DNA from: Nautilia profundicola AmH
Lineage (GTDB): Bacteria > Campylobacterota > Campylobacteria > Campylobacterales > Nautiliaceae
DNA length: 64,000 nt
NCBI RefSeq assembly: GCF_000021725.1
Contig: NC_012115.1
Coordinates: 893,001-957,000 of the forward strand
Direction of reading: 5' to 3'
Position numbers and translations under genes: made by a program. Under the pieces are notes generated by a model. That model was not told the origin of the DNA, searched no databases, and worked only from the letters and a program-made list of their open reading frames with translations. How positions within the stretch are numbered: position 1 is the first letter of the stretch; every line of letters starts with the position of its first letter. Shown here in pieces: positions 4,067 to 27,490 of the stretch.

Positions 4067-4855
4067 TTACTCTTTTATCCATTTTTTTAAAATTTTTTCT
4101 CTAATTCCGCTTTTATCCATTTTTTCAATTTCTTTATTTATTTTTTGCAACAGTTCTTTTGCTTTAGGATATTTTTTCGAGATAAAAAGTCTGAATTTGG
4201 AAGTTTTTAACTTATCATAAGGAACATATGAGATATCTTCCGGAATCTTACATTTACCAATCATCTGATATCCTAAAATTGCCTCTTTAGAAGCAACCAT
4301 AATATCACACCTATTTGCGGATATTTTTTTCAAAACAGCACATTGACTTGTTGCTTCTTGATTAATTGTTTTATTTTTATCCAAATTAAACACTGTATAA
4401 TAAAATGAAGTGTTATAACCGTTTACGTCACATATTCTTAAAGAATTAATATCATTTTTAACTTTATTAAGTATTTCATCTTTGGTAAATCTTTTTTTCG
4501 AAAACCATATTACTTGGTGAGTTGTATATATTGGTTTTGTAATATATAATATTTTTGCCCTTTCTTTGGAATAAAGACCTGGGAAAATAGCATATTTTTT
4601 TGCTCTGTCATATACTGATACTAAATAAGTACACCTTTTCCATGGAAGAAGATCAAGTTTATATGTAATGTTAAGATCTTTAAACATCACATTATACATA
4701 TCAACCAAAGCACCTACAACCTTACTTTTATCAACTTTACCATTAACTCTTTTATAAAATACAAAAGGCGGCCATTCAGCTCCGTCATCACATATGTACA
4801 ATATATCTTTAGCATATAAACTAAACCCAAGAATTATTGCCAATAATATTTTCAT
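4067..4855 (-). CDS. Periplasmic solute-binding protein, family 3-like
   Basis: A 262-residue protein with a cleavable signal peptide (about residues 1-15, ending SLYAK) and the fold pattern of family 3 extracellular binding proteins: the opening WPPFVFY, the DMYN and PWKR segments, and a C-terminal helix of the type IEKMDKSGIREKILKKW. No permease or ATPase is near, so it is less likely to serve a transporter than to present a ligand to a sensor. It starts ten bases after the end of the SiaA-like phosphatase gene and surely shares its transcript, which suggests it is the periplasmic partner of that membrane receptor. The ligand is unknown. Confidence 0.75.
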   Translation of the reverse strand: MKILLAIILGFSLYAKDILYICDDGAEWPPFVFYKRVNGKVDKSKVVGALVDMYNVMFKDLNITYKLDLLPWKRCTYLVSVYDRAKKYAIFPGLYSKERAKILYITKPIYTTHQVIWFSKKRFTKDEILNKVKNDINSLRICDVNGYNTSFYYTVFNLDKNKTINQEATSQCAVLKKISANRCDIMVASKEAILGYQMIGKCKIPEDISYVPYDKLKTSKFRLFISKKYPKAKELLQKINKEIEKMDKSGIREKILKKWIKE

Positions 4856-4865
4856 TCACACCCCC

Positions 4866-6890
4866 TTATATTTTAAATCCGATTACTGCAATATCATCGT
4901 TTCTCATTTCATCCTTTTGCCATTTTCTCAATTCTTCCAAGAAAAGTTCTTTTTGTAAACTAAAACTGCTGTTATGATATTTTTGTATTAACATCATAAA
5001 TCTTTTTTTACCAAACGGGAATCCGCTTTCCCCTCCCAACTGATCTAAAAATCCGTCAGTCGTGACATAAAATTTCATATCTTCTTTTATATTAATATCG
5101 TATTCGGTGTACTTATAATTAATATCTGTAAACACATCTCCAACTGAGCGTTTATTTCCTCTTATAGTTTTGACCTCTTCATTTTCATCTAAATAAAATA
5201 TCGGTACATTTGCGCTTGAAAATTTAAATATATTTTTTTCTTTGTTGTAATATATAATAGCTCCGTCAAATCCTGCATTTGAAGTTGAGTCTTTATTGTA
5301 TTGTTTCAATATTGATTTAATGGAAACATTAAATTTTTCCAATATTTCAGCAGGAGAAATTTCTTTTTCAGAAAGACTTAATTCGTTTATAATATGCATT
5401 TGCACAGCTTTTACGAGCATTGTCATTAACGCGCCATGAACACCGTGTCCCGTACAATCGATTAACATTAATAAAAATTCATTTTTTCTCACTTCGTCAA
5501 GAAAATATATATCACCGCCGAGTACGTCTTTAGGCTCCCAGATTACGAAATAATCTTTAAAACATTTTGCAAACACCTTTTCAGACGGAAGTATTGATTT
5601 TTGTATTAATGAAGCATATCTGATACTTTCTTCCGTCATATTTAGAAGAGCTTTTATTTTACTTGTTTTTTGTTCTACTAAATCTTCCAAATGATTTTTT
5701 AATTTTTCTAATTCTTTTTTATCTGTAATATTGTATGAAATCATTATATATTTACACTCATCATCAAACATACATTTTTTAGTCATGTGCGAATAAAGCC
5801 AATAATCTTTTCCGTCTTTTGAAACACACTTAACTTCACCGTTCCATATACCGTTTTTGTTAACGTTTTTAATTATTTCGTCTAATTTTATATTTTTAAA
5901 TATATCCAATTTTTTATTAAGAATTTCGTTTTTTGAATATCCGCAAGTCTCGCAAAAAGCTTTTGTAACATCAATTATTTCACCTTTTTCATTGAACTCG
6001 CTGATAATTACGTACTTATCTATTACATTCATAAGCTCAGAAAGCTCTCTATGTAATTTAGAACTAACTGCAATACCTTTATTTGTAAAGTTCGCTATCT
6101 CTCCAAACTCATCTTTTGTGTTTATTCTAATAGGTTGAATTTTTAATTTCGGATTTGCTAAGAAATTGAAAAATCTTTCTAAACCTTTTCTTATTTCTTT
6201 AAGCGGTTTGTTTATGAATTCATTTAATATAAAAATTAAAATTACTATTGTAAACAGTGCGGCAATTACAAAATATAAAAACAGCATTTTCTCTTTTTGT
6301 AATGTAGCGTTATATATTTGATTGAATTTAATATTTACAAGTTTTAATTCGTTTTGTTCCATTTCGTTTAAATGTTGAAGAACAGGTGTCAAATCATAAT
6401 ACACTTTAACGTAACCGATAGGTTCGTTATTGTAAATAAGCTCTTTTTTTATATATTTAAATTTTTTAAATTGCTCCGGTAAATCTTTTGAAGAAAATAT
6501 TTTTTTACCATGGTCTTTATATGCTGAAAGAAAAACTGATTTGGCAACAGTATCATATATAACCACACCTTTTATTACGTCATCTTCCAATAAAACATCA
6601 TCAAGTATTTTTTTTGCCGCTTCTTCTTGGTAATTAAACAATGAATAACTAAAAGTGGTTTTTGAAAAGTTGATTATTTTTTTAAGGTTACAAAGAGTTT
6701 TTTCTTTAGTTTTTTCTTTTTGTTCTTCAATAAAATTAACAACAAATTGTTTCTGCTGGGAATTGAGTGTTTTTAAAATTTCAGCCTGGTGATTTTTAAT
6801 AGAAGTCGCTATCCATATCCATATTATACTTTGAAGAATTATAATTATTATTAAAACTTTGAATACTATACTATTTTTAAATTTTACCAT
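4866..6890 (-). CDS. Membrane PAS/HAMP PP2C-type phosphatase, SiaA-like
   Basis: A 674-residue receptor phosphatase. Order: transmembrane helix at about 5-25, periplasmic sensor to about 205, second helix to about 225, HAMP linker, PAS domain (about 290-400, with a PAC-like end), short coiled coil, and a SpoIIE/PPM phosphatase domain. Catalytic metal residues are visible in VLGGDIYF, DCTGHGVHGAL, TDGFLD and the terminal RNDDIAV. In Pseudomonas, SiaA of this type dephosphorylates SiaC. SiaB and SiaC homologues occur at 23-27 kb, so this is a good candidate for their phosphatase. I chose the ATG at 6890, which has GAGG six bases upstream, over a TTG at 6902. Confidence 0.85.
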   Translation of the reverse strand: MVKFKNSIVFKVLIIIIILQSIIWIWIATSIKNHQAEILKTLNSQQKQFVVNFIEEQKEKTKEKTLCNLKKIINFSKTTFSYSLFNYQEEAAKKILDDVLLEDDVIKGVVIYDTVAKSVFLSAYKDHGKKIFSSKDLPEQFKKFKYIKKELIYNNEPIGYVKVYYDLTPVLQHLNEMEQNELKLVNIKFNQIYNATLQKEKMLFLYFVIAALFTIVILIFILNEFINKPLKEIRKGLERFFNFLANPKLKIQPIRINTKDEFGEIANFTNKGIAVSSKLHRELSELMNVIDKYVIISEFNEKGEIIDVTKAFCETCGYSKNEILNKKLDIFKNIKLDEIIKNVNKNGIWNGEVKCVSKDGKDYWLYSHMTKKCMFDDECKYIMISYNITDKKELEKLKNHLEDLVEQKTSKIKALLNMTEESIRYASLIQKSILPSEKVFAKCFKDYFVIWEPKDVLGGDIYFLDEVRKNEFLLMLIDCTGHGVHGALMTMLVKAVQMHIINELSLSEKEISPAEILEKFNVSIKSILKQYNKDSTSNAGFDGAIIYYNKEKNIFKFSSANVPIFYLDENEEVKTIRGNKRSVGDVFTDINYKYTEYDINIKEDMKFYVTTDGFLDQLGGESGFPFGKKRFMMLIQKYHNSSFSLQKELFLEELRKWQKDEMRNDDIAVIGFKI

Positions 6891-6959
6891 TAAAAACCTC
6901 AATCATTTTCTTTTATTATAGCATATATTGAGGTAGTGATAAAGTGTAAATAATAAATA

Positions 6960-23275: not shown

Positions 23276-23824
23276 TTATTTAACAGTCTCATTTCTTCCT
23301 ATTACGGCTTTAAATTTAAAAAAACATCTTTCCGCATCAATTGTTTCAAATTCATATTCGATATATTTTGATCTTTTTGCTATTTCATAAAAGCCTATTC
23401 CTCCGCCTTTTTTATGAGAATTCACTCCGCTTCTTCTTATTTCCCTATAAAGCTTTTTTATTTCATCTAAAGAAGACTTTTTAATTAACGACAAAGTCTT
23501 TTCTATTTTTTCCTTGTCTTTTTTTGTAATGATATTTTGGGTATATATATAATAATTATTTTGTTCGTCTTTTCCAACTACAATCACACCTTTCGGATCA
23601 AGTTCGTTATTTTTTTTCTTAGAGTAATTCATCAAGTTTTGAGACAACTCAATAAAAACAATACATATGTTTGTCGCAAGTCTTGTAGATATGAAGAATT
23701 TTTCGGATTCTATTTCCAACGTTTCCGTCATGGCAACAATCAACGGCTGTGTAAAATAACCGCCATAACTTAAAAATATAACCTCGTCATTTTTAAAAAC
23801 ATCGCTAAGAAGTGTTTTAATCAT
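23276..23824 (-). CDS. SiaB-family protein kinase
   Basis: A 182-residue protein with a GHKL-type ATP-binding pattern: an N-box like IELSQNLMNYSKKK (about 58-71) and a G-rich lid KKGGGIGFYEIAKRSKYIE (about 138-156). SiaB kinases phosphorylate SiaC in the Pseudomonas SiaABCD pathway. It overlaps the end of the SiaC homologue by eight bases and is the last gene of the module. Presence of kinase and substrate side by side makes the assignment firm; the upstream signal is unknown. Confidence 0.87.
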   Translation of the reverse strand: MIKTLLSDVFKNDEVIFLSYGGYFTQPLIVAMTETLEIESEKFFISTRLATNICIVFIELSQNLMNYSKKKNNELDPKGVIVVGKDEQNNYYIYTQNIITKKDKEKIEKTLSLIKKSSLDEIKKLYREIRRSGVNSHKKGGGIGFYEIAKRSKYIEYEFETIDAERCFFKFKAVIGRNETVK

Positions 23825-24206
23825 TAAGAGAGTCCTTTTCCACTAATCTAATGTCCATTTCTGGAAAATCTTCCACAAAATCTTCTCCCGCTTCTTTTGC
23901 GTTTTCATTTTCCTTATCATAAATCCAGTTAACGATAACTTTAGACTTATCTCTCATTTCATCCAATATATCCAATAAGTTAAAAAAAAGTTTCGACGTA
24001 CTTGAATTAAAATAAACTATTTCCATATTCACTGTCGTAGTATCTTTAGGGTTCTTACTGTATTCTTTTATCCATTTCATTATAGGTTCGTAAAACTCAA
24101 ATGTATTCTCAGGGTACGATTTACCTTTCAGGCTTATAATGCCTTTATCAGGATCTAAATATATTTCAGGTGTATACCTTGTAGGTTCGATATAAATTTT
24201 TTCCAT
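23817..24206 (-). CDS. SiaC-family regulatory phosphoprotein (DUF1987), copy b
   Basis: A 129-residue STAS-like protein of the SiaC/DUF1987 family. Visible hallmarks are RYTPEIYLDPDKGIISLKGKSYPENTFEFY and the phosphosite loop YFNSSTSK at 65-72, with Thr70 in the place of the threonine phosphorylated in Pseudomonas SiaC. It starts one base after the HD-GYP gene and overlaps the kinase gene. In Pseudomonas, unphosphorylated SiaC activates a diguanylate cyclase; here its direct neighbour is a c-di-GMP phosphodiesterase. Confidence 0.9.
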   Translation of the reverse strand: MEKIYIEPTRYTPEIYLDPDKGIISLKGKSYPENTFEFYEPIMKWIKEYSKNPKDTTTVNMEIVYFNSSTSKLFFNLLDILDEMRDKSKVIVNWIYDKENENAKEAGEDFVEDFPEMDIRLVEKDSLND

Positions 24207-25571
24207 TTAGTTTCCCTTTTTCAATAATTTTATATAATATTCTTCGTCTATTTCGTCAATTTGATCTTTTGCCAAAAACATTTCCGCATATTTTTTATAT
24301 AACTTTGATTTGAGAAACACGATTAATATTTGTTTATCAAGCTCGTTATGCAATGCTTTTTCCACTAATATGTCAATTGCTTCAGAGAGTTTTTTTCTTT
24401 TTTTATAAGGTCTGTCATTAGCGGTCAATGCTTCGAATATATCTGCAATCGCCATAATTCTTGCAGGTATAGGAATTTCATCTCCTTTAAGTTTTCTCGG
24501 ATACCCTTTTCCGTTCAATGTTTCGTGGTGCGCTCCGGCGTATAACGGTACATTTTTGAATTTTTCAGGGAATGGCAGACTTTCCAACATTTTAATCGTC
24601 ATTATTACGTGTTCTTGTATTTTATAATACTCTTCTGGAGTTAAAGTACCTCTTTTAATACTTAAATTATAAATTTCACCGAAGTTATATAAATTCTCAG
24701 GAATTTTAATTTTAAAACCGTTTCTTTTTAATTCCTCAATTTCTTTTTTGGATCTTTTTATAACATGTCGCTTTTTATCAGCTAATAAATACTCTTTAAC
24801 AGGAAGTTTTTGATTTTTTTCCTCTTCGCTTATTCTTTTTAATTCCTCTTTTGAAAGTCCTAACGTATCGTCAAAATGTCTAAGCCACGTTCTTTTTGCG
24901 ATTTTTTTTAGTTTTTCTATTTTTTCATCGTTTACTTCAGCATATCCGTGGTTCATTTCTGCAACGAATTTAAACTCTTCTTGAAGTTTATCAAGTTCTT
25001 TTTTAAGCCATTCGTCCACTTCTTTTTCATCTTCCCCGTTTAATTTTCTCTGTTGCGCCTCAATAATCAAATCCCTGTAAACAATTTCAAATCTTGCTCT
25101 GATTTCATGTATTCTGTTATACAGTGTTTCAAGTTTAACGGCTTTATCCATTACAAAATCAGGTGTAACTATTTTCCCACTGTCATGCAGCCATGCAGCC
25201 GTAGATATTTCTTTTTCTTCGTCTTTATTTTTAATCTCAAAATCTATACTGTCGTCTTTACTGACTTCTTTTGCAAGTAAAATCGTAAGAATCGGAACAC
25301 GTTCACAATGTGCACCGATATATTCATTTTTTGCGTCAATTGCACTCGCAATCATTTTGATAAAAGAATCAATTAATTCCTGCTGCTCTTTTTGAAGCTT
25401 TTTTACCTCTTCAAACTTTCTTTCTAATTCATCATATTCTTTTTTTTGTCTTTTATCGGATAATAATAAAATCTTCTCTTCTCTTTTAAGATTTCTTATC
25501 AATTTATCCATTAATTTGTCAAAATCTTTTTTCGACTGTTCTATTTGAGAGATTAATTCGTGATTAAGCAT
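24207..25571 (-). CDS. HD-GYP domain cyclic-di-GMP phosphodiesterase, copy b
   Basis: A 454-residue cytosolic protein. N-terminal coiled coil (about 1-70) includes LLLSDKRQKKEYDEL, a linker motif common in regulated cyclases and phosphodiesterases. The HD-GYP domain has HCERVP (88-93), catalytic AAWLHDSGK (125-133), then about 160 extra residues before EHVIMTIKMLE, GAHHETLNGKGYPRKL and ADIFEALTANDRPYK. All metal-ligand motifs are kept, so c-di-GMP hydrolysis is likely. The insertion is conserved in copy a. It has its own promoter-like region upstream (25572-25686) and is followed at once by SiaC copy b. Confidence 0.88.
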   Translation of the reverse strand: MLNHELISQIEQSKKDFDKLMDKLIRNLKREEKILLLSDKRQKKEYDELERKFEEVKKLQKEQQELIDSFIKMIASAIDAKNEYIGAHCERVPILTILLAKEVSKDDSIDFEIKNKDEEKEISTAAWLHDSGKIVTPDFVMDKAVKLETLYNRIHEIRARFEIVYRDLIIEAQQRKLNGEDEKEVDEWLKKELDKLQEEFKFVAEMNHGYAEVNDEKIEKLKKIAKRTWLRHFDDTLGLSKEELKRISEEEKNQKLPVKEYLLADKKRHVIKRSKKEIEELKRNGFKIKIPENLYNFGEIYNLSIKRGTLTPEEYYKIQEHVIMTIKMLESLPFPEKFKNVPLYAGAHHETLNGKGYPRKLKGDEIPIPARIMAIADIFEALTANDRPYKKRKKLSEAIDILVEKALHNELDKQILIVFLKSKLYKKYAEMFLAKDQIDEIDEEYYIKLLKKGN

Positions 25572-25686
25572 ATTAAACTACGCTCCTTTTTAGATTTAAA
25601 CTGAAATACAATACATTATATATAACCTTACAATATTTTATACCAATTATAAAAAATTATCAAGTTAAATAAAACAAATCTTGTCT

Positions 25687-27114
25687 TTAATTCGTTTTAT
25701 TTCCCTTCGTAAAATAATCAACATATGCATTTACATCAACATCGTCAATTTGTTCCGGTTTAAGATATTTTTTTGCATATTCCAAATAAATTCCACTTGT
25801 TAAAAACAACAAAAACAAATCTTTATCCAATTCCCCTTTTTTTACCATATCGGCCAATATATCAATGGCTTCAGAAAGTTTTTTAGGATGTTTATAAGGT
25901 CTGTCACTTGCGGTCAGCGCTTCGAATATATCTGCAATCGCCATAATTCTTGCAGGTATAGGCAAATCTTTTTCTGTCAGTTTTCTCGGATATCCTTTAC
26001 CGTTAAGTTTTTCATGATGTGCTCCTGCGTATATAGGAACATTTTTTAAATAATCTGGAAACGGTAGCTGTTCAAGCATTTTGATTGTCATCATTGCATG
26101 TTCTTGAATTTTAAAAAATTCTTCTTTTGTTAAAGTTCCCTTTTTTATACTTAAATTATAGACTTCTCCATAGTTGTACAAATTTTCCGGTATTTCGACT
26201 TTAAATCCGTATTTTTTATATTCTTCAATTTCCTCAGCAGGTCTTTTTATTTTATGTCTTTGTTTATCTGAAATTAATTTTTCCCTTACCGGCAATTTTT
26301 GGTTGAAATCTTCTTCAGGTATTCGTTCAATTTCTCCCTTGCTTAATCCCTTTGTATCGTCGAAATATCTAAGCCATTCTCTATTTGCTATATTTTGTAA
26401 TCTTTCTAACGTACTTTCTTCAATACTTTCGCTTCCGACATTTAGTTTGGCAATAAAATCAAAATCGTCTTGTAACTGTTTTTGTTCTTTTTTTAACCAT
26501 TCATCCACTTTCTTTTCATCTTCACCGTTCATTTTCCTCTTTAAAGCTTCTATAATAAGATCTCTGTTTATTACTTCGAATCTTGTTCTAATTTCGTGTA
26601 TTCTGTTATAAATTGTTTCTAATTTTACGGCTTTATCAACAACATACTCAGGTGTTACGATTTTTCCGCAATCATGAAGCCATGCTGCTATTGAAATTTC
26701 CGTTTCTTGCTGTTCGTTTTTGATTTCGAATTCAAACTTCTCACTCTGACTTGCCGCTTTAGCCAGTTCAATTGCAATTTCAGGAACCCTTTCACAATGT
26801 TTCCCGGTATAACTGCTTTTCGTATCTATCGCTTCTGCAATGATTTTAATAAAAGAATCTATTAATTTTTTCTGAGCTTTTTGAAGTTTTTCAACTTCTT
26901 CGAGTCTTTTTTGTAATTCGTCATACTCTTTTTTCTGTCTTTTATCCGAACGTAGCATAATTTTTTCATGACGTTTCAGGTCTTTGACAAATTTTTCCAT
27001 TAATTTTATAAAATTCTCTTTTTCCTCTTCCTCATGGATATATTGAGAATATTTCTCTTTTGCTTTTTCTATTTCTTTAATTAATTCATTTTCCGCCATT
27101 TTATTCTTCTTCAC
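25687..27114 (-). CDS. HD-GYP domain cyclic-di-GMP phosphodiesterase, copy a
   Basis: A 475-residue paralogue of the neighbouring gene, alike over its whole length: N-terminal coiled coil with MLRSDKRQKKEYDEL, HCERVPEI, AAWLHDCGK, the same long insertion, EHAMMTIKMLE, GAHHEKLNGKGYPRKL and ADIFEALTASDRPYK. The N-terminus is about 20 residues longer, with a Lys/Glu-rich helix. It overlaps the end of SiaC copy a by 14 bases. The pair SiaC-a/HD-GYP-a and the pair HD-GYP-b/SiaC-b arose by duplication, with the second pair in swapped order. Confidence 0.88.
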   Translation of the reverse strand: MKKNKMAENELIKEIEKAKEKYSQYIHEEEEKENFIKLMEKFVKDLKRHEKIMLRSDKRQKKEYDELQKRLEEVEKLQKAQKKLIDSFIKIIAEAIDTKSSYTGKHCERVPEIAIELAKAASQSEKFEFEIKNEQQETEISIAAWLHDCGKIVTPEYVVDKAVKLETIYNRIHEIRTRFEVINRDLIIEALKRKMNGEDEKKVDEWLKKEQKQLQDDFDFIAKLNVGSESIEESTLERLQNIANREWLRYFDDTKGLSKGEIERIPEEDFNQKLPVREKLISDKQRHKIKRPAEEIEEYKKYGFKVEIPENLYNYGEVYNLSIKKGTLTKEEFFKIQEHAMMTIKMLEQLPFPDYLKNVPIYAGAHHEKLNGKGYPRKLTEKDLPIPARIMAIADIFEALTASDRPYKHPKKLSEAIDILADMVKKGELDKDLFLLFLTSGIYLEYAKKYLKPEQIDDVDVNAYVDYFTKGNKTN

Positions 27115-27490
27115 TCTTTTTTATTAAATTAATATTTAATTCAGGGAAATCTTCTTTAAAATCTTCTCCGGCTTCTTCGGCACTTTCATTTTCTTCATCG
27201 TAAATCCAGTTTATCGTAATATTATTTTTCTCTTTTGCTTCTTGTAGGATGTCAAACAAATCAAACAATACTTTTGAGCTGCTTGAATTAAAATATATTA
27301 TTTCAAAATTTACCACCGTATTATCTTTTGCACAGCAATTAAAGTACTCTTCTATCCATTTTAACACCGGTTCATAAAAGTCAAACGTATTTTCAGGATA
27401 TGATTTCCCTCTTATTTCAATTATCCCCTTTTCCGCATTTAACGATATTTCAGGCGTATATTTTGTTGCGGGTATATACAAATTTTCCAT
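27101..27490 (-). CDS. SiaC-family regulatory phosphoprotein (DUF1987), copy a
   Basis: A 129-residue paralogue of the SiaC protein at 23.8 kb: KYTPEISLNAEKGIIEIRGKSYPENTFDFY and YFNSSSSK at 66-73. The residue matching Thr70 of copy b is Ser71, so it may still be phosphorylated but could be recognised differently by kinase or phosphatase. It heads the transcript with HD-GYP copy a. AAAAGGAATAGG lies just before the ATG. Confidence 0.9.
   Translation of the reverse strand: MENLYIPATKYTPEISLNAEKGIIEIRGKSYPENTFDFYEPVLKWIEEYFNCCAKDNTVVNFEIIYFNSSSSKVLFDLFDILQEAKEKNNITINWIYDEENESAEEAGEDFKEDFPELNINLIKKSEEE

Follow-up and report, generated by a model that had tools for sequence, protein, structure and literature searches.

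The closest described relative of the system analysed here is SiaABCD of Pseudomonas aeruginosa (PMC8457831, PMC7647112), which comprises a PP2C-type phosphatase (SiaA), a kinase (SiaB), the phosphoprotein SiaC and a GGDEF effector (SiaD). SiaC is phosphorylated on Thr68 (PMC7647112); in the SiaC–SiaD structure it holds two repeated motifs on the stalk of SiaD, with contacts to R74, K77, V78, R80, I81, S82, D83, R84, Y85, Q86, M88, R90 and D91, and its Thr68 sits between two stalk helices, beside S82 and Q86 (PMC8457831). The same study suggests that modulation of an adjacent protein is a general property of DUF1987 proteins. For the Campylobacterota, gene neighbourhood has led to the proposal that a turnover enzyme of cyclic dimeric GMP (c-di-GMP) is controlled, through a STAS protein, by a STAS kinase and a PP2C that has a periplasmic sensor (PMC9239204, mBio 2022); according to a legend of that paper the example pathways come from Nautilia profundicola AmH, and they are likened there to SiaABCD. 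Here we analysed a 64,000-nucleotide stretch of the genome of N. profundicola AmH, a bacterium of deep-sea vents (NC_012115.1, positions 893,001 to 957,000; hereafter the window), in which a minus-strand operon holds two siaC genes, two genes for HD-GYP proteins and one siaB gene. We consider it probable that this operon belongs to a SiaA/B/C partner switch with HD-GYP phosphodiesterases as its output.

Read from position 27490 down to 23276, the operon follows the plan siaC-hdgyp, then hdgyp-siaC-siaB, so that one HD-GYP gene adjoins each siaC:

27101..27490, minus strand: SiaC1, a SiaC/DUF1987 phosphoprotein (PF09345, 150.7 bits; aligned to Pseudomonas SiaC)
25687..27099, minus strand: HD-GYP1, 470 amino acids, with an N-terminal stalk and an HD-GYP domain that carries a large insert (HD_5, 151.7 bits)
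25572..25686, minus strand: intergenic gap of 115 bp between HD-GYP1 and HD-GYP2
24207..25571, minus strand: HD-GYP2, 454 amino acids, of the same architecture as HD-GYP1 (HD_5, 159.2 bits)
23817..24206, minus strand: SiaC2 (PF09345, 142.3 bits)
23276..23824, minus strand: SiaB-family protein kinase of the DUF6272/HATPase type (NF038262, 122 bits against a cut-off of 85; PDB 6kko_A, E value 2.3e-9)

A first-pass annotation made from the letters had described two SiaC-like genes, each paired with an HD-GYP gene, and one SiaB-like kinase, and the PF09345, HD_5 and NF038262 matches confirm this gene set. Its wording that the HD-GYP proteins stand 'instead of a cyclase' is true of the operon, where siaC has HD-GYP neighbours and no GGDEF gene is present, but not of the genome, which also encodes 31 GGDEF and 16 EAL domains. 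The first base of SiaC2 directly follows the HD-GYP2 stop codon, SiaB and SiaC2 overlap by 8 bp, and HD-GYP1 likely starts at the ATG at 27099, since the listed GTG start at 27114 would overlap siaC1. A promoter scan of the operon region returned a promoter-like match (25663-25635) at chance level.

The SiaC-docking motif of SiaD recurs on both HD-GYP proteins, which are 64% identical to each other and are the sole HD-GYP (HD_5) proteins encoded in the 1,676,444-base genome. A motif R..K[IV]...SD..Q, in each case in the form R..KI...SD..Q, lies on their N-terminal helix and was located by a genome-wide pattern search with the SiaD contact residues:

26920..26973, minus strand: putative SiaC-docking motif of HD-GYP1, RHEKIMLRSDKRQKKEYD
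25431..25484, minus strand: putative SiaC-docking motif of HD-GYP2, REEKILLLSDKRQKKEYD

In both proteins the residues equivalent to SiaD R74, K77, S82, D83, Q86 and D91 are identical, with V78 replaced by isoleucine and R84 by lysine. Plain similarity searching of solved structures with the HD-GYP2 stalk gave coiled-coil noise only and did not find SiaD; the contact-residue pattern was therefore needed, and by this pattern alone the two SiaD motifs, RLERIARISDGFQSMAREQ and RLEKVARISDRYQQMMRDL, were retrieved from a structure library. When the six main residues were encoded as a degenerate DNA pattern, it matched three sites in the 1.68-Mb genome, namely the two HD-GYP genes and a third that an in-frame stop interrupts; no further intact open reading frame carrying the six-residue motif was found genome-wide.

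The distance from the glutamine of the motif to the first catalytic histidine is conserved in related proteins, measuring 46 residues in 41, 39 in four and 53 in one of the 46 HD-GYPs compared. These spacings always differ by a multiple of seven, as would be expected for a coiled coil held in fixed register; in histidine kinases that carry the motif the spacing was 53 (seven proteins) or 46 (one), with one exception at 71. The stalk is common to two types of HD-GYP protein, a short one of 260 amino acids and a long one of 450 amino acids that includes an insert of some 150 residues. Five of the short proteins are 47-60% identical to HD-GYP2 in the stalk and 28-32% in the remainder, and a sixth (L110) is 33% and 30% identical, respectively. 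In the window (24207-27099) the insert follows the HD motif and precedes the next catalytic histidine, and it is also present in L147, L109, L126 and L105. The structure predicted for a SiaC-HD-GYP read-through chain of a relative consists of the two expected folds, matching SiaC and the HD-GYP structure 4mcw, joined by an 80-residue helix that bears the motif; a model of HD-GYP2 itself, built from six sequences, was poor (predicted local distance difference test score (pLDDT) 67).

Both SiaC proteins (60% identical to each other) score well over the PF09345 cut-off and fall below the NCBI equivalog cut-off for Pseudomonas SiaC (103-112 against 150 bits). In the alignment, the equivalent of Thr68 is Ser69 in SiaC1 (codon 27286-27284) and Ser68 in SiaC2 (codon 24005-24003), within the motifs Y-F-N-S69-S-S-S and Y-F-N-S68-S-T-S that correspond to Y-L-N-T68-S-S-I of Pseudomonas. 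The first-pass annotation had placed the phosphosite at Thr70 in one copy and Ser71 in the other and had proposed that the copies differ there; these two residues match Pseudomonas Ser70, two residues off, and we reject a difference between the copies, as serine occupies the Thr68 position in both. Serine is the rule at this position, occurring in 115 of 121 SiaC sequences with threonine in the other six. Of the residues through which SiaC contacts SiaD, Y65, N67, S69, D79 and D114 are kept in the Nautilia proteins, with serine for T68 and aspartate for E110 as conservative replacements. The kinase carries Glu59/Asn63 and a GGGIGF glycine motif that align with 6kko_A, and it belongs to the SiaB family by NF038262; its score with the equivalog model for Pseudomonas SiaB stays below the cut-off of that model (65 against 225).

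To place the motif in a wider setting, we surveyed 397 Campylobacterota genomes, in 21 of which SiaC was found. The HD-GYP form of the motif occurred in 11 genomes, all SiaC-positive, at 13 sites that each lie less than 1.7 kb from SiaC. HD-GYP proteins were encoded in 180 genomes, and the motif was present in 11 of the 20 that have SiaC versus none of the 160 that lack it (Fisher test P=4e-16 over all 397 genomes and 1.4e-12 among the HD-GYP genomes; the genomes are related, so these values overstate independence). Because SiaC-linked HD-GYPs were the source of the pattern, this comparison shows that the motif-bearing kind tracks SiaC, not that any HD-GYP can be found in this way; the six-residue pattern derived from SiaD is free of that bias. 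At the same loci, the motif was carried by 52 of 210 open reading frames near SiaC versus 13 of 733 elsewhere. The pairing extends beyond Nautilia: SiaB-SiaC-HD-GYP blocks with the motif are present in relatives in Sulfurimonas, Arcobacter and Sulfurospirillum, and also in the Mariprofundaceae, and the same block is found in the Gammaproteobacteria Colwellia, Vibrio sp. Of7-15, Pseudoalteromonas, Marinobacterium, Thiomicrospira and Methylococcaceae. Since relatives retain the same arrangement, it is not a product of chance. A docking-helix gene lay within 1 kb and on the same strand for 75 of 120 distinct SiaC genes, and none was detected beside the other 45; as similarity to Nautilia SiaC set the ranking of the surveyed loci, HD-GYP partners are over-represented among them. 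The SiaC tree (128 columns) was resolved only in part, and HD-GYP partnership was clustered on it (15 changes versus 38 when shuffled).

In the mechanism that we propose, SiaB would phosphorylate each SiaC on the serine (Ser68/Ser69) at the N-terminus of helix alpha2, and a SiaA-like PP2C would take the phosphate off. Unphosphorylated SiaC would dock, as on SiaD, on the N-terminal coiled-coil stalk of the neighbouring HD-GYP protein via R..K[IV]...SD..Q, and docking would stabilise a parallel dimer of the stalks, held in register with the catalytic domain. The docked SiaC would most likely turn the phosphodiesterase on; dephosphorylation of SiaC would then lower c-di-GMP, opposite to its effect in Pseudomonas. 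Judged from sequence, docking of SiaC on the HD-GYP stalk is very likely, and phospho-control of the pair is likely. The earlier proposal that SiaC is wired to HD-GYP proteins is supported by the docking motif on both stalks, the confinement of its HD-GYP form to SiaC genomes and the intact catalytic residues described below. Several observations weigh against the mechanism: SiaD R80, Y85, M88 and R90 have no conserved counterparts in the HD-GYPs, and R103 and L107 of SiaC are likewise not conserved; each HD-GYP has a single docking motif where SiaD has two; both the HD-GYP-form pattern and the docking-helix profile were drawn from SiaC neighbours, so that adjacency is partly built in; the read-through model had good local confidence but a predicted template modelling score (pTM) of 0.54 and no confident docking; and the SiaA homologue lies about 16 kb from siaB, its tie to this SiaC coming from synteny in a relative.

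The sign of the control is the point at which another explanation survives best. SiaC might dock on the HD-GYP stalk and inhibit or sequester the enzyme, with phosphorylation by SiaB freeing an active phosphodiesterase, as the docking motif and its spacing indicate coupling and not its sign. We regard this as unlikely: the one complex that has been solved shows SiaD activated by docking of unphosphorylated SiaC, which forms a stalk dimer (PMC8457831), and a register that is fixed relative to the catalytic domain suits an active dimer, by analogy only. Given docking, activation is thus the likely outcome, an expectation drawn from the single case of SiaD. That the HD-GYPs act instead on another cyclic dinucleotide such as 3'3'-cyclic GMP-AMP (3'3'-cGAMP), or serve mainly as binding platforms, with c-di-GMP breakdown not being controlled, appears improbable. 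Among solved structures, HD-GYP2 is most similar in sequence to V-cGAP3, the 3'3'-cGAMP phosphodiesterase of V. cholerae, but the metal-binding histidines and aspartates and the GYP motif are all intact (H88, H129, D130, K133, H321, H348, H349, GYP 356-358 and D377 being invariant in 15 aligned proteins), a related short HD-GYP has the c-di-GMP enzymes 4mcw and 4r8z as its best fold match, and the genome holds the GGDEF and EAL domains counted above; c-di-GMP is presumably the substrate. We regard as highly improbable a target of SiaB/SiaC elsewhere, such as a sigma factor or a distant cyclase, with the HD-GYP genes as mere neighbours: the STAS-like anti-sigma antagonist fold of SiaC (PMC7647112) and the 45 SiaC genes without a detected docking-helix neighbour would suit it, but genome-wide the SiaD-type motif lies only on the two HD-GYPs and it tracks SiaC across the phylum.

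The phosphatase required by the partner switch has a candidate in the window, outside the operon, with a binding-protein gene beside it:

4866..6902, minus strand: SiaA-like membrane PP2C/SpoIIE phosphatase (PDB 6k4e; synteny with G039)
4067..4855, minus strand: periplasmic solute-binding protein adjoining SiaA (SBP_bac_3; G039 counterpart)

The best PDB match of the PP2C is the SiaA PP2C domain of P. aeruginosa (6k4e, E value 7.5e-46). In another member of the family (G039), a single operon encodes an HD-GYP, SiaC, SiaB, a PP2C 66% identical to the one in the window and, after SiaA, a solute-binding protein 73% identical to that at 4067-4855. We take the PP2C as the candidate phosphatase for phosphorylated SiaC, and it is because of its inclusion that the SiaA/B/C set is full. 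A second PP2C and binding-protein pair near 1,097 kb of the genome is 46% identical (6k4e, E value 1.4e-48), and either PP2C could dephosphorylate SiaC. Three such pairs were seen in the Nautiliaceae (window 4067-6902; L256:5746-8525; L029:4629-7458), which suggests solute sensing as the input to SiaA, with the solute-binding protein at 4067-4855 as a possible input partner.

SiaC1/HD-GYP1 are nearest to two proteins of the congener G028, its SiaC and one of its HD-GYPs (78% and 70% identical, respectively), and SiaC2/HD-GYP2 to the single SiaC/HD-GYP pair of G039 (78% and 75%); these identities suggest that each SiaC is matched with an HD-GYP of its own, and the pair was probably doubled before these species split. 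In a locus of the congener (L031), two HD-GYP genes flank one SiaC gene, with a gene for a HATPase-CheX protein bearing the docking helix and siaB farther along; this single SiaC may serve three effectors.

The Nautilia system thus resembles SiaABCD in its PP2C, its SiaB-type kinase, a SiaC in which the phosphosite position is likewise occupied by a hydroxyl residue, and an effector beside SiaC with the same stalk docking motif; it differs in its HD-GYP effector, its two SiaC proteins and two effectors, its one motif per stalk, the location of SiaA outside the operon and serine in place of threonine at the phosphosite. The pathway of PMC9239204 is of the same kind and its genes are probably the same, so the general idea is prior; the HD-GYP output, docking site, phosphosite and sign are not named in that paper's text on the pathway. 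Among open-licence papers we found none linking SiaC to an HD-GYP enzyme, and as far as could be checked the docking motif, the corrected serine phosphosite, the synteny-based assignment of SiaA and the variety of outputs are new. A REC-PP2C-HATPase protein, a STAS protein and a chemoreceptor encoded in a row elsewhere in the genome (L257:4374-7362) match what PMC9239204 gives as its second pathway. In response-regulator HD-GYPs of the RpfG/PA4781 type, too, an N-terminal helix drives the HD-GYP domain, whereas the Nautilia proteins have no receiver domain and carry a stalk with a putative docking site for a separate protein; by analogy, SiaC may take the role of the receiver domain. In HsbA-HsbD and BgrV-BgrR (cited in PMC8457831) a STAS-fold partner likewise modulates a c-di-GMP enzyme, but the proteins are others, the target is a cyclase and sharing of the docking helix is not established. 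If the proposed mechanism is true, a well-studied biofilm switch changes sign when only the enzyme behind the docking helix is swapped, and the only two HD-GYP proteins of Nautilia are under one kinase. The docking helix could then be read from sequence to predict SiaC-controlled cyclases, phosphodiesterases, kinases and phosphatases across bacteria, and would allow the suggestion of PMC8457831 on DUF1987 proteins to be tested.

The docking-helix profile matched a close homologue of SiaD whose gene adjoins SiaC (L238, E value 1.3e-14) and placed the helix before several other output domains: GGDEF cyclases (L238, L252, L254 and L255, and L027 with a PAS domain), histidine kinases (L038 and L106), a hybrid kinase (L159) and HATPase-CheX proteins (L128 and L031). 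This range suggests that SiaC is a general adaptor. On balance we lean towards SiaC as a general, detachable regulatory subunit, with a short portable helix (R/K..K-hydrophobic...S/A/G-D..Q) that would put many outputs under one Ser/Thr phospho-switch and the Nautilia HD-GYPs as one case. A docking-like helix was also found in class III nucleotide cyclases immediately downstream of SiaC (L134:3643-4665 and L140:6467-7495), which would tie SiaC to cAMP/cGMP, and a weak one in SpoIIE-type PP2Cs beside SiaC (L121:855-1847 and L241:4991-6001), possibly forming a feedback loop; the weaker matches (L140, L121, L241 and L255) have E values of 0.04 to 0.9 and rest also on their position beside SiaC. 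A docking helix, a HATPase and a CheX-like domain are combined in L128:6389-8542 and in similar 717-amino-acid genes in L135, L138, L143, L150, L154 and L158, and genes of this kind adjoin SiaC in several phyla.

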